DNA of 64,000 nucleotides from an uncultured bacterium. GTDB lineage: Bacteria; Cyanobacteriota; Vampirovibrionia; Gastranaerophilales; Gastranaerophilaceae. Below are positions 3,231 through 60,741 of this stretch, one piece after another. The position numbers were made by a program, and so were the translations under genes. The notes under the pieces are model-generated. The model was given only the letters and a program-made list of their open reading frames with translations, had not been told where the DNA came from and did not search any database. How positions within the stretch are numbered: the stretch's first letter is position 1; every line of letters begins with the position of its first letter. The DNA lies in assembly GCA_949299935.1 (NCBI GenBank), contig CASGCE010000017.1:1-64000 (forward strand), written 5' to 3'.

Positions 3231-3950
3231 CTATAATTTTAAGCTGTCCCAATATTTTTGAGTTTCATCATCAGGATTTTTATCGTTGGTCGCATACCAA
3301 CTGCAACCTATTCCGTTCAGTATTTGTGGTGAATCCTTAGTACATGGTAATCCTGCAATATATGGATATCTTACATCTTCAAGGTCTTCTTCGCTAGTGT
3401 ATTTCTTATACATTTTCCCGAGAGCTAATAAATCGTTTTCAACCAAAAACATAAATATATCATATCCCAGTTGGTTTGGGCCTGAACTTGGTCCGTTGAT
3501 GTCTGTAAATATTTTTATTTCACCTGAGGTTATAGTTACGTTTACTGAGCTTCCGTTTTTTAGTAAATACAATGGGTTAGGGTAATCTACACTGGGAGTT
3601 ATTCTATACTCTGCTGTAGAATATGATTTGGTGTTATTGTAGTTAGTTATTGTGTAGTCTTTTGCCGTCTTTTCAAGATAATTGCAGTTTTTTAAAAAGG
3701 TTTCTTGAAATTTTTCGCTGAATGGATAATATTTTGCTCCGTTTCTATAACAATTTTTTAATAAATTCTCACCCAGCTCTATTCGAGTTTTTATAACTGC
3801 TTCCGACAATATTGCATAGGTCTGTAAGTATCGTGTTTTTAAAACTTTTAACCTGTAATTTTGTATTAGTGTAGGTATGGTCAATGCCGCAACAATCCCG
3901 ATTATACCCAAGGTTATTAACACTTCTGCTAGAGTAAAAGCCTTTTTCAT
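3231..3950 (-). CDS. Type IV pilin-like protein, 239 aa
   Basis: The N-terminus is a prepilin signal: MKKA followed by FTLAEVLITLGIIGIVAAL, with Glu at +5 of the mature protein, then a hydrophobic helix for pilus assembly. The rest is a globular domain with several Cys and a G-x-D-x-N-G-like end (FTDINGPSSGPNQLGYDIF), common in this lineage's pilin-like proteins. A GGGGAG ribosome binding site lies six bases from ATG 3950, and the promoter is near consensus. Unlike the pilins at 51434 and 60690, this gene has no G tract and its leader is short and in frame, so it should always be on. The divergent XRE gene shares its promoter region. Confidence 0.88.
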   Translation of the reverse strand: MKKAFTLAEVLITLGIIGIVAALTIPTLIQNYRLKVLKTRYLQTYAILSEAVIKTRIELGENLLKNCYRNGAKYYPFSEKFQETFLKNCNYLEKTAKDYTITNYNNTKSYSTAEYRITPSVDYPNPLYLLKNGSSVNVTITSGEIKIFTDINGPSSGPNQLGYDIFMFLVENDLLALGKMYKKYTSEEDLEDVRYPYIAGLPCTKDSPQILNGIGCSWYATNDKNPDDETQKYWDSLKL

Positions 3951-51376: not shown

Positions 51377-51405
51377 TTGCCAATCGGGTTATAATATGTT
51401 ATAAT
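51377..51405 (+). promoter_or_regulatory. Promoter of the G-tract pilin gene
   Basis: TTGCCA (51377-51382), 17-base spacer, TATAAT (51400-51405) on the plus strand. The AAAGGAG ribosome binding site (51417-51423) and GTG start (51434) follow. Confidence 0.75.
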
Positions 51406-51433: not shown

Positions 51434-52185
51434 GTGTTAAAAGGACTGAACGGGGGGGGGCGTCTTCTTTAAGCCGACGTAGTCGTTGTATCCGAGATAA
51501 TGGAAATTGGTCAGGATTATTAAATGATGGTGTTAAAATAGGAAAAGCATTTACCTTGGCAGAGTTATTGGTAACTTTAGGTATAACAGGCATAGTTGCA
51601 GCCTTAACAATTCCGACGTTGATTAATAAATACCAAGAAGAACAATTTAAAACAGCATATAAAAAAGCATATTCAGATTTGCAGCAAGTTATTATGTTGT
51701 CTTTAGCGTATAATGAAATGCCCTATCGTTCTTCTGCAAATGATATGCAGGCTACAATAAAAGAATTTGAAAAAATCACAGCGGGATTGATTGTGTCGAA
51801 GCAATGTAACGAGTCGAATTTTTACGAATGTTGGGCAAAAGGTGATACGGTATGCGGTGGTGCTTGTTCTTCAGGAAATGCTGAAGATGGTATAGACATG
51901 GAAAATGGTGCCCCAAACCCCAGTGGTTCTCCACAGCCTTTTTTGGATCTTTCCGGAAGAAGTTGGGCGGTTTATGAGAAGACTCACAATATATATTTGG
52001 TTGATACTAATGGTCTTTCAGGTCCAAATTTGTTTGGAAAAGATAGGTGGATGTTTACTTTTGCGGACGAAAATAACAATCGAGTGATAACGGGTTATCC
52101 TAAAAAGTTAAAACCATATGTGGGTATGGACATGACAACAGTTACAGCCTTCTGCAAGCACCCTCCATGTTATTACAAAACATAG
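51434..52185 (+). CDS. Type IV pilin-like gene, out of frame at a G9 tract (phase-off as read)
   Basis: GTG 51434 has AAAGGAG ten bases upstream. It reads into nine G (51452-51460), then a stop after 12 codons. The pilin domain is in another frame: with one more G the start joins it without a stop, giving a leader with NGGGASSLSRRSRC followed by KAFTLAELLVTLGITGIV. Without it, no proper start exists; the pilin frame has only a TTG inside the conserved motif. The mature protein is about 210 aa, with six or seven Cys and a GLSGPNLFGKDRWMFTF block like that of the other pilins. A terminator follows. One-base length errors in sequencing could mimic this. Confidence 0.75.
51452..51460 (+). repeat. 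G9 homopolymer in the pilin leader
   Basis: Nine consecutive G in an AT-rich genome, 18 bases after the start codon. Ten (or seven) would put the start in frame with the pilin. The only other such run in the window is in the pilin gene at 60645. Confidence 0.95.
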
Positions 52186-53789: not shown

Positions 53790-54860
53790 TTATGCACCTT
53801 GAATTTGTCGTTTTAATTCTTCCGGTCTGGAAGATCTTGATAGTGCATCTTCCAAAGTGATAGATTTGCTTCTGTATAATTTTGCAAGTGACATTTCAAG
53901 AGTTTCCATACCTGAACCTTGGCTAGTTTGGATTGTAGAATAGATTTGAGCTGCCTTGGCTTCGCGGATTAAGTTTGCTATGGCAGGAGTTACAATCATG
54001 ATTTCTTGAGCCATCACCCTGCCCTTTTTAGTTCCATCAGGTTGTAGTTTTTGCAGAAGTGTTTGTGAAAATACGGCTACAAGTGAGTTTGCCAATTGAA
54101 CACGAATCTGCTGCTGTTGACCTTCAGGAAATACGTCTATAATACGGTCAATTGTTTGTGAAGCGGATGAGGTGTGTAATGTGCCGAATACCAAGTGACC
54201 GGTTTCTGCTGCGGTCAAGGCTAATGCAATAGTTTCGTGGTCACGCATCTCACCTACAAGTATAATATCAGGGTCTTCACGAAGTGCTGCTCTTAAAGCG
54301 TTTGCAAATGACCTTGTGTCAGCTCCGAGTTCTCTTTGATGAATAATGGATTTTTTAGATGTGTGAACAAATTCAACGGGATCCTCAATTGTTAGAATAT
54401 GTTCGGCTCTTGTCCTGTTTATGTAGTCAACCATTGCCGCAAGTGTTGTGGATTTACCTGAACCGGTAGGACCTGTTACCAGTATAAGTCCTCGGGGTTT
54501 TTCTGCCATTTTTTTAACAATGTCAGGCAATCCTAAATCCTCAAGCTTTGGTGCAACAGAACTGATTGTTCTAAATGCTGCAGCGTAACAACCCTTGTCT
54601 TTGTAAAAGTTAACCCTGAAACGTCCTACATTGTCTATACCATAGGAAAAGTCTAACTCCCAATCTTGTTCAAGACGTCGTCTTTGTTCATTTGAAAGCA
54701 TCGGAAATAATAACGCTTCAACATCTTCAGGTGTTAACGGGTTTGATTCATATCTTACAAGTTGTCCGTCGATACGTGCAACCGGCGGCAAAGCGTTTGA
54801 TATATGTAAGTCACTTCCGCCGTCTTTTACTAATCTTTCTAATAATTCTTCTATTATCAT
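53790..54860 (-). CDS. pilT: Twitching motility ATPase PilT
   Basis: A 356-aa retraction motor of type IV pili. An N-terminal PAS-like domain (GGSDLHISNALPPVARIDG) precedes Walker A GPTGSGKSTTLAAM, the Asp box, Walker B ALREDPDIILVGEMRD, the His box TGHLVFGTLHTSSA, and a C-terminal MEIMI-type linker (GRVMAQEIMIVTPAI). All catalytic motifs are intact. It supports functional pili in this organism, consistent with the pilin-like genes. The upstream 83-aa gene ends nine bases before its start. Confidence 0.95.
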   Translation of the reverse strand: MIIEELLERLVKDGGSDLHISNALPPVARIDGQLVRYESNPLTPEDVEALLFPMLSNEQRRRLEQDWELDFSYGIDNVGRFRVNFYKDKGCYAAAFRTISSVAPKLEDLGLPDIVKKMAEKPRGLILVTGPTGSGKSTTLAAMVDYINRTRAEHILTIEDPVEFVHTSKKSIIHQRELGADTRSFANALRAALREDPDIILVGEMRDHETIALALTAAETGHLVFGTLHTSSASQTIDRIIDVFPEGQQQQIRVQLANSLVAVFSQTLLQKLQPDGTKKGRVMAQEIMIVTPAIANLIREAKAAQIYSTIQTSQGSGMETLEMSLAKLYRSKSITLEDALSRSSRPEELKRQIQGA

Positions 54861-59353: not shown

Positions 59354-59430
59354 CGGGATGTAGCGCAGCTTGGTAGCGCACCACGTTCGGGACGTGGGGG
59401 CCGCAGGTTCAAATCCTGTCATCCCGACCA
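59354..59430 (+). tRNA. tRNA-Pro (anticodon CGG)
   Basis: A complete 77-base cloverleaf: acceptor CGGGATG pairs with CATCCCG, D-arm with GCGC stems, anticodon stem CCACG/CGTGG around TTCGGGA (anticodon CGG), T-arm GCAGG TTCAAAT CCTGT, and encoded CCA. It decodes CCG. Confidence 0.95.
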
Positions 59431-59440
59431 TTTGTATAAA

Positions 59441-59465
59441 GTTCTTGGCAAAACTTTGTGAGAGG
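59441..59465. repeat. Palindromic repeat, truncated copy
   Basis: On the minus strand: CCTCTCACAAAGTTTTGCC, the outer parts of the repeat seen at 71-108 joined without its centre. It leads directly into a tRNA D-arm fragment (GGTTGGTAGCG). Confidence 0.5.
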
Positions 59466-59556
59466 TTGGTAGCGTGCCAGGGCGACATTGACAACAAAAT
59501 AAGAAAAGAAGTAAAATCGGCAAGGTTGCCGTGTACAAAAAATTTCGGGACGTGGC
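59455..59556 (+). repeat. 102-base direct repeat, copy 1
   Basis: Identical to 59587-59688 except one base (GGCGAC against GGCAAC), offset 132. It begins with a tRNA-Pro D-arm fragment and ends with a tRNA-Pro 5' end (CGGGACGTGGC). The middle contains no gene I can name. Confidence 0.9.
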
Positions 59557-59610
59557 ACTGTGCCGAACAAAACAATTGAGAATTGTTTTGTGAGAGGTTG
59601 GTAGCGTGCC
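59546..59610 (+). pseudogene. Interrupted tRNA-Pro fragment
   Basis: CGGGACGTGGC (5' end of tRNA-Pro GGG) is followed not by GCAGC but by a 40-base palindrome, after which TTGGTAGCGTGC of the same tRNA resumes. It then diverges before the anticodon, so no functional tRNA is possible. Confidence 0.7.
59558..59597. repeat. Palindromic repeat, copy inside the broken tRNA-Pro
   Basis: ACAAAACAATT (59567-59577) pairs with AATTGTTTTGT (59581-59591). On the minus strand it reads CTCTCACAAAAC through GTTTTGTTCGGCA, as does copy A in the 5S locus. The one stem pair that differs (C-G there, T-A here, read on one strand) is compensated on both sides. Confidence 0.75.
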
Positions 59611-59688
59611 AGGGCAACATTGACAACAAAATAAGAAAAGAAGTAAAATCGGCAAGGTTGCCGTGTACAAAAAATTTCGGGACGTGGC
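59587..59688 (+). repeat. 102-base direct repeat, copy 2
   Basis: Second copy of 59455-59556; its end is the 5' end of the intact tRNA-Pro (GGG). Confidence 0.9.
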
Positions 59689-59754
59689 GCAGCTTGGTAG
59701 CGTGCTACCTTGGGGTGGTAGAGGTCGCAGGTTCAAATCCTGTCGTTCCGACCA
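59678..59754 (+). tRNA. tRNA-Pro (anticodon GGG)
   Basis: A complete 77-base cloverleaf: CGGGACG pairs with CGTTCCG (one G-T), anticodon stem CTACC/GGTAG around TTGGGGT (anticodon GGG), T-arm GCAGG TTCAAAT CCTGT, encoded CCA. It decodes CCC and CCU. Confidence 0.94.
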
Positions 59755-59839: not shown

Positions 59840-60690
59840 TTAAAATTTTACAGGGTAGTCATCTGCAATTTTCCATCCATCACGAATAATTTTTGCAGCG
59901 CATGTTCTACCATAGCCTCCTACTTTGCAGTCGGTTTCTTCAATCGGTCTTGAAAGACCGTATGGGCGGGCTGTATTGTTTGAAAAATCAATTTGGTAGA
60001 AAAAAATATCTTTACCTAAAGTATTAGGTTCTTTCAATCCGTTAATATCAACGTATACACTTTGTGTTGTAGCATATTTTGCTGTTTGCGAAATCAGATT
60101 GCCATCATTATCATATTTTTTGTCCCAACCCATCACAATGACAAAAAATGTAATTCCGTCACGGGTGATAAAAAATATACGACCATTAGAATAGGATGTG
60201 TAAATACCGATATCTATTATTCCGTTGTTTAAGTATTTGTAAGCATTACCTTTAGAAAAGGGTTTAGTTGAGTAAACTTTGGGAGAATTAAAATATGGCA
60301 GCCAATATGTATCAAAAAATTGTTTTGTGCGCTCGGACGTTACATCAGAATTTGGATTTAAAAATGCTGCAACACTGCCATTGTCTGCAACTGATTGCAA
60401 AATCATTTGAGAAAGCACTGCGTTTACCTTTTTTAGTTTAGATATTGTTTGCGATTTTTGATACTTTGAAATAATCGTAGGAATTGTTATTGCAGCAACT
60501 ATCCCGATAATACCGAGTGTAATCAATACTTCAGCCAAAGTAAAAGCAAAAAACTTTTTAAAACCACAATTCATAATAATAGAATTATAGGTATGGTTTA
60601 TAGATTTGTTAAGTCGCCTAAAACCTAAAAGCTGAGGCTGAATAGGGGGGGGGCGACTATCTGAACCGCTTTTGTGTCAATCGTTTTCAT
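59840..60690 (-). CDS. Type IV pilin-like gene, out of frame at a G9/C9 tract (phase-off as read)
   Basis: ATG 60690 has AAGGAGG five bases upstream and opens MKTIDTKAVQIVAPP. The run of nine C (minus strand, 60653-60645) then leads to a stop after 21 codons. The pilin domain is one base out: with a tenth base the start reads through IQPQLLGFRRLNKS into MNCGFKKFFAFTLAEVLIT. An internal ATG at 60574 begins the pilin frame but has no ribosome binding site. The mature domain (about 235 aa) resembles the other pilins and has the VDINGLKEPNTLGKDIFFY block. Promoter TTGACA-17-TTTAAT lies upstream. A sequencing miscall of the run is the alternative. Confidence 0.78.
60645..60653 (-). repeat. G9 homopolymer in the third pilin's leader (C9 on the coding strand)
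   Basis: Exactly nine bases, 36 bases after the start codon. One more restores the pilin frame, as in the gene at 51434. Confidence 0.95.
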
Positions 60691-60712
60691 ATAATCCTCC
60701 TTCTTTTCTTCA

Positions 60713-60741
60713 ATTAAATATTACTTTTCATATTTTGTCAA
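60713..60741 (-). promoter_or_regulatory. Promoter of the third pilin gene
   Basis: On the minus strand: TTGACA (60741-60736), 17-base spacer, TTTAAT (60718-60713), then AAGGAGG and ATG 60690. Confidence 0.75.

Follow-up and report, generated by a model that had tools for sequence, protein, structure and literature searches.

Nine-base G/C tracts in the leaders of type IV pilin-like genes: a probable default-OFF reading-frame switch in Gastranaerophilaceae

A type IV pilin-like gene of an uncultured bacterium is preceded by a run of nine cytosines that leaves it one base out of frame with its start codon, and this raises the question whether the gene is broken or whether the run acts as a switch. 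The gene belongs to a member of the Gastranaerophilales, the non-photosynthetic relatives of cyanobacteria, whose family Gastranaerophilaceae consists of gut bacteria that are uncultured and stand at the base of the cyanobacterial line. The 64,000-nucleotide stretch that was analysed (the window) represents contig 17 of a 37-contig, 1.68 Mb assembly, and all statements on its genome (G000) refer to this single consensus assembly.

The locus (60574-60741) was read by script and by eye on both strands. Every element described in the original prediction, i.e. the promoter-like TTGACA-17-TTTAAT, the Shine-Dalgarno (SD) sequence AAGGAGG, the ATG and the coding-strand C9 tract, was found in the sequence (Table 1). 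The gene is indeed one base short: the frame of the ATG at 60690 ends at a TAG soon after the tract, and the pilin frame (..PPPIQPQLLGFRRLNKSINHTYNSIIMNCGFKKFFAFTLAEVLITL..) requires one additional base relative to this ATG. The first internal ATG of the pilin-frame ORF, at 60574, has no SD sequence. The N_methyl match of the encoded protein (E=4.6e-4, 20.1 bits) was slightly below the Pfam cut-off, and in the genome search it was above the cut-off. A single-sequence structure model of the protein has a long N-terminal helix with strands after it, at low confidence (pLDDT 48); a fold search with this structure was dropped because the quality of the model was insufficient. Two tRNA-Pro genes (anticodons CGG and GGG) are located at 59354-59754. 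This region has two copies of a ~95 bp segment, which includes partial tRNA-like ends and differs little between the copies, within the inter-tRNA spacer and in front of it.

Table 1. Features of the two tracted pilin genes and of the untracted control gene in the window
Feature	Position	Strand	Basis
Promoter-like TTGACA-17-TTTAAT, C-type pilin gene	TTGACA 60741-60736, 17 nt, TTTAAT 60718-60713	-	consensus match only
Shine-Dalgarno AAGGAGG	60702-60696	-	sequence
Mini-ORF, frame 0, from ATG 60690 through the tract; peptide MKTIDTKAVQIVAPPLFSLSF, then stop (TAG soon after tract)	60625..60690	-	translation
C9 tract (G9 on + strand), proposed length switch; nine = out of frame, ten = in frame	60645-60653	-	
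Pilin-frame ORF 3' of tract: prepilin leader and type IV pilin-like protein	59840..60644	-	
Promoter-like TTGCCA-17-TATAAT, G-type pilin gene	51377..51405	+	consensus match only
Mini-ORF, frame 0, GTG 51434 to TAA, AAAGGAG in front; peptide MLKGLNGGGRLL, then stop	51434..51472	+	
G9 tract, register identical to that of the second tract	51452..51460	+	
Pilin-frame ORF 3' of G9, leader ASSLSRRSRC..GKAFTLAELLVTLGIT..	51461..52185	+	
Untracted pilin (control), own SD and ATG, in frame	3231..3950	-	

The window contains one further tract of this kind, the G9 of a G-type pilin gene (the first tract, the C9 being the second). Both tracts had been predicted to need the same change, and the gene behind the GTG 51434 mini-ORF likewise requires one extra base. 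Its pilin-frame ORF contains no in-frame start codon from the tract to the pilin motif. The two tracts had also been described as the only nine-base G/C runs in the 64 kb; no further G/C run was present even at a threshold of seven, and a first-order Markov model of the window predicts 0.045 runs of at least nine. The third pilin gene, which has a TIGR02532 match, is free of a tract and reads in frame, as had been stated. The description of the two leaders as unrelated did not wholly stand, since their G-strand flanks are similar (G9CGTCT at the first tract, G9CGACT at the second). An Rfam search of the window returned two tRNAs only and no other known RNA element. At 53985-54857 on the minus strand, ~2 kb from the pilin gene of the first tract, is a gene for a T2SSE-family ATPase (PF00437) that may be PilT-like.

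Across the genome 55 G/C runs of 7-10 bases were found (54 of at least eight and one of seven), of which 48 were exactly nine and three exactly ten bases long. The first-order Markov expectation is ~1.2 runs of at least nine and about 24 of exactly seven. Nine-base runs are thus far above expectation and seven-base runs almost missing; the solitary run of exactly seven suggests that runs outside pilin leaders are avoided. As many as 51 of the 55 runs lie 14-339 bp 5' of a PF07963 motif and in coding orientation (binomial about 1e-90), the number of PF07963 matches in the genome being 66, with 65 above the cut-off. The runs at L042 and L073 precede pilins missed by the HMM, L084 has the same leader in a locus cut by the contig end, L060 is no pilin locus, and the run at L049 lies outside any leader. 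True leader tracts therefore number 52-53, which is the majority of the ~68 type IV pilin-like genes. The clustering of runs in surface-protein leaders that the original prediction had envisaged is more extensive than was supposed there, and the scatter in unrelated places that would speak against it was looked for genome-wide and not found. The pilin-like proteins carry the prepilin N-terminal motif (FTLxEVLI hydrophobic helix), and profile matches identified a prepilin peptidase (Peptidase_A24) and T2SSE ATPases for processing and assembly. In contigs C30, C31, C32, C33, C34, C4, C6 and C8 of G000, and in many contigs of the related genome G018, the distance from a tract to the contig end is often no more than a few hundred bases. 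This suggests that the repeated leaders break assemblies, and the real number of loci may exceed the count. No carrier was found when viral contigs were searched for the leader.

The leaders follow a common plan: SD sequence, start codon, 4-13 codons, G9 or C9, and an open pilin frame. In G-type leaders a varied promoter, SD and start are followed by mostly 6-9 codons with AAC as the last one, G9, CGACTCCTCTAAGTAGAAATAGCAAGGGTTTTGACC.. and the pilin. In C-type leaders, including that of the 60574-60741 locus, promoter and start region are conserved (ATGAAAACGATTGATACAAAAGCGGTTCAGATAGTCG) and are followed by C9, varied DNA and the pilin; the TTTAAT-like -10 is also present 5' of most of the other C-type loci. 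Frame 0 from the start encodes short peptides, M..NGGGRLL or MKTIDTKAVQIVAPP.., each terminated by a stop, and the pilin is in a different frame. The distance from start to tract is 3n in 40 of 42 G-type and 3n+1 in all seven C-type leaders. Most loci of both types share the G-strand flank G9CGACT despite their opposite coding orientation. That G9-CGACT is a strand-independent protein recognition site was unsupported, as the flanks vary by species (CGTCT, TAGAAA, CGTTAGG, CAAAAA). Two peculiarities of single leaders were noted. At L091 (G000:C36:53596-54596) a T9 run in the mini-ORF, a few bases before G9, shifts the ATG into the other frame, so this locus may have a second slippery run or a defective start. 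Some long prepilin leaders (L065, L066 and L073; in the relatives G002 and G014 leaders L122-L126, L207 and L214) contain translated dispersed palindromic repeats (e.g. GTCATCCTGAACTTGTTTCAGGATC; HPEAKPKDL peptides), with the pilin frame unbroken.

Reading frames were called by a simple SD-plus-start rule combined with the motif pattern. Of the 44 nine-base loci for which a start was accepted and a pilin motif found, 43 had one common offset; the remaining locus, L055, was scored from a doubtful GTG. Stricter SD filtering gave 45 scored loci, of which 42 required +1, one was in frame at ten and two required -1. L093, a copy with G7, was in frame. What had been called a frame error is therefore a genuine one-base offset, but no lesion: it is the majority state of this gene family. 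Between tract and pilin motif there was no stop in 1,568 codons of the pilin frame, compared with 151 and 235 stops in the 1,519 codons of each other frame, and the pilin frame remained free of stops even with leader inserts of more than 100 bases. Among 41 aligned leaders none had gained a stop in the pilin frame, and the synonymous share was highest in this frame, as judged from pairwise counts, which are non-independent.

Several observations bear on the point at which the pilin frame is entered. An SD sequence of at least four bases was present at 48 of 49 upstream starts and at none of the internal starts; at 16 loci internal starts are wholly absent. An internal promoter with a leaderless pilin start was considered, as many leaders have TTGACC-17-TATAAT and then ATG, and was rejected: paralogues drop the -10 and the ATG yet hold the frame, and the internal starts lack an SD. 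A pilin-frame stop is located immediately 5' of the tract in 27 of 42 G-type loci, indicating that the frame can be entered only inside the tract. The pilin bodies have dN/dS values of 0.05-0.28 (five pairs, out-of-frame loci among them), i.e. they are under purifying selection. Taken with the translation evidence, this indicates that the genes are used and that the frame has to be entered within the tract.

Entry within the tract might be achieved by ribosomal -1 frameshifting on GGG GGG G or CCC CCC C, and the frame-0 stop soon 3' of the tract, together with the pilin-frame stop directly 5' of it at the 27 loci, is reminiscent of programmed frameshift sites. This mechanism would, however, force glycine and proline codon runs to slip in the same way, and the direction of the shift is not constant, being +1 base in G000 and -1 in its relative G014. 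We regard ribosomal frameshifting as very improbable.

The reading that we prefer, and regard as probable, is translational (reading-frame) phase variation with a default-OFF register: the tract would serve as its switch, and most type IV pilin-like genes would be under its control. Translation would begin at the SD-served upstream codon, cross the 4-13 spacer codons and reach G9 or C9. With nine bases it would terminate within a few codons (OFF). Replication slippage to ten (or seven) bases would change the tract length within the population and permit read-through into the pilin frame, so that the ten-base state would yield protein, a prepilin with a long leader (ON). The prepilin peptidase is expected to cut this leader at the usual site and leave a mature pilin that is unaffected by tract length; since the tract is in the cleaved part, lengths of 7, 10 and 13 should give identical mature proteins. 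The default-OFF bias was added to the model because random ON/OFF switching would not be expected to leave 42 of the 45 loci with a common register. The register would be placed such that the commonest length is OFF, and each cell would display a small subset of its pilins. The uniform length of nine is possibly a mutational equilibrium, and the register would then be the choice of selection; in Neisseria the modal poly-G length is also nine (PMC5953494). As far as sequences can tell, the reading is supported by the two-frame architecture, the common register, the stop-free pilin frame, the purifying selection and the 9/10/11 differences between species at syntenic loci. Three features of translational phase variation mediated by simple repeats (SSRs) are present: a slippable homopolymer is located in the 5' coding region, a one-unit change switches between a full ORF and an early stop, and lengths differ at syntenic loci between species. 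The slippage-prone character of the tracts, implied in the original prediction, thus gains support from their genome-wide clustering and from these length differences. Loss of mismatch repair was rejected as the source of the tracts, as MutS1 and MutL are encoded in G000 and its congeners.

A leader-sequence search of named species genomes gave matches in Candidatus Gastranaerophilales MAGs. Runs of at least nine bases were found in 15 of 15 congeners searched (11 to 102 per genome). The counts were high in several further genera of the family (maximum 176) and fell to 0-6 in the order's other families. Relatives were represented by one genome per species, and the frame counts of G002, G003, G006, G014, G018 and G136 are samples of their contigs. 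In G002, 15 leaders were at nine (requiring +1, OFF) and six at ten (in frame), with no other class. The nine-base leaders of G014 mostly required the opposite change (-1), the tracts of G018 (another genus) had lengths of 9-13 with mixed frames, and the majority of the few scored leaders of G136 required +1 from ten. Run length, uniform in G000, was non-uniform in G002, G003, G006 and G018. Syntenic loci, matched by their upstream genes, were 9/9 in most pairs and 9/10 (L056/L115, L056/L202, L080/L109), 9/11 (L080/L104) or 7/9/10 in some. Between syntenic G-type loci the mini-ORF peptide is weakly conserved, and frame and approximate length are retained. At loci of G122 and G017 (L133-L136 and L254-L257; other genera) poly-G was observed in or near non-pilin genes, and poly-G switching may therefore reach further genes.

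These comparisons bear on three other explanations. The first is programmed transcriptional slippage, with nine as the working length: RNA polymerase would add a base in some transcripts, and the ~50 pilins would be decoded at a low, mixed dose per cell, with the tract as a gain control and no heritable switching. The near-uniform length (48 of 55 at nine) and single register in G000 are consistent with this, as is the same +1 at G-run and C-run loci. In many bacteria slippage of the polymerase on A and T runs likewise becomes evident once these reach nine bases, and nine-base A/T runs restore the longer product of mxiE and of IS elements (PMC1088944). Those bacterial precedents are A/T runs, however, and the cited study analysed A and T only. 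The hypothesis is weakened by the mixed lengths in relatives, i.e. nine and ten in G002 and 9-13 with mixed frames in G018; the variation between species at syntenic loci and the opposite change at equal length in G014 also argue against it. We give it a small but appreciable chance of being correct. Transcriptional slippage could add leakage to the switch or be the main mechanism itself.

Secondly, the identical one-base change required nearly throughout G000 could arise from systematic under-calling of homopolymers during assembly, and reference sequences have proved an unreliable guide to the length of pilus G-tracts (PMC9187656). Such an artefact is hardly credible here: the contig names of related assemblies (k127, NODE, idba) indicate short-read assemblers, A9, T9 and T10 runs occur elsewhere in the window, G014 requires a change in the other direction, and nine and ten are found side by side in G002.

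Thirdly, the conserved tract and leader might mainly be a recombination joint for the exchange of pilin cassettes between loci, the frame offset being secondary. Among the handful of syntenic pairs compared, L066/L214 and L088/L214 have upstream DNA that is 78-81% identical and pilins whose best matches are elsewhere. Leaders also look homogenised within a genome, the third base after the tract being A in 42 of 44 cases in G000 and T in 16 of 20 in G002. Other syntenic pairs retain their pilin, however (L056/L202, 82% aa), and recombination has no need of a strict frame without stops over long leaders. As the main function of the tracts, a recombination joint seems quite unlikely; it could nevertheless operate alongside phase variation, with which it is compatible.

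The type of switch proposed is already known. The opa genes of Neisseria form a multigene surface-protein family with a slippage repeat in each cleaved leader and reading-frame switching (PMC3745409). They encode an outer-membrane adhesin in 4-12 genes, and the repeat is a CTCTT pentanucleotide in the leader-peptide coding sequence, whereas the Gastranaerophilaceae system has G/C homopolymers, ~50 genes, prepilin leaders and one common OFF register. In the poly-G/C phase variation of Neisseria pilC the homopolymer (G 9-20) likewise lies in the coding frame of a type IV pilus gene (PMC5953494), but PilC is a pilus-associated protein rather than a pilin and is present in one or two copies. In another gut commensal, Bifidobacterium breve, a G-tract separates a secretion-signal ORF from a pilin ORF (bbr_0113, bbr_1889); replication slippage joins the ORFs, and the ON length is enriched in vivo (PMC9187656). 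The Bifidobacterium loci, at most two per genome, encode sortase pili, in contrast to the tens of type IV pilin-like loci found here. The transcriptional slippage of Shigella mxiE and of IS elements likewise requires a nine-base homopolymer for the longer product (PMC1088944), although it involves an A/T run, the RNA level and single genes. Neisseria pilE/pilS also draws pilin diversity from a repertoire and has G-rich DNA close by, but it works by G-quadruplex-initiated gene conversion from silent copies, whereas each of the Gastranaerophilaceae genes has its own SD and start.

New are the lineage, the scale, the common register and the targeting of prepilin leaders in the majority of the pilin-like genes. 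The open-access literature searched contained no earlier description of such a switch on this scale or in these bacteria; subscription journals were mostly outside its scope. Automated annotation may take tracted pilin genes for broken ones, and miss them or label them as pseudogenes. The common OFF register raises a question that can be tested on existing metagenome reads, namely whether one or a few pilins are displayed per cell at once. If the proposed switch is real, the Gastranaerophilaceae, with the run counts reported above for the congeners and for one further family member, would rank with the most strongly phase-variable bacteria so far described.
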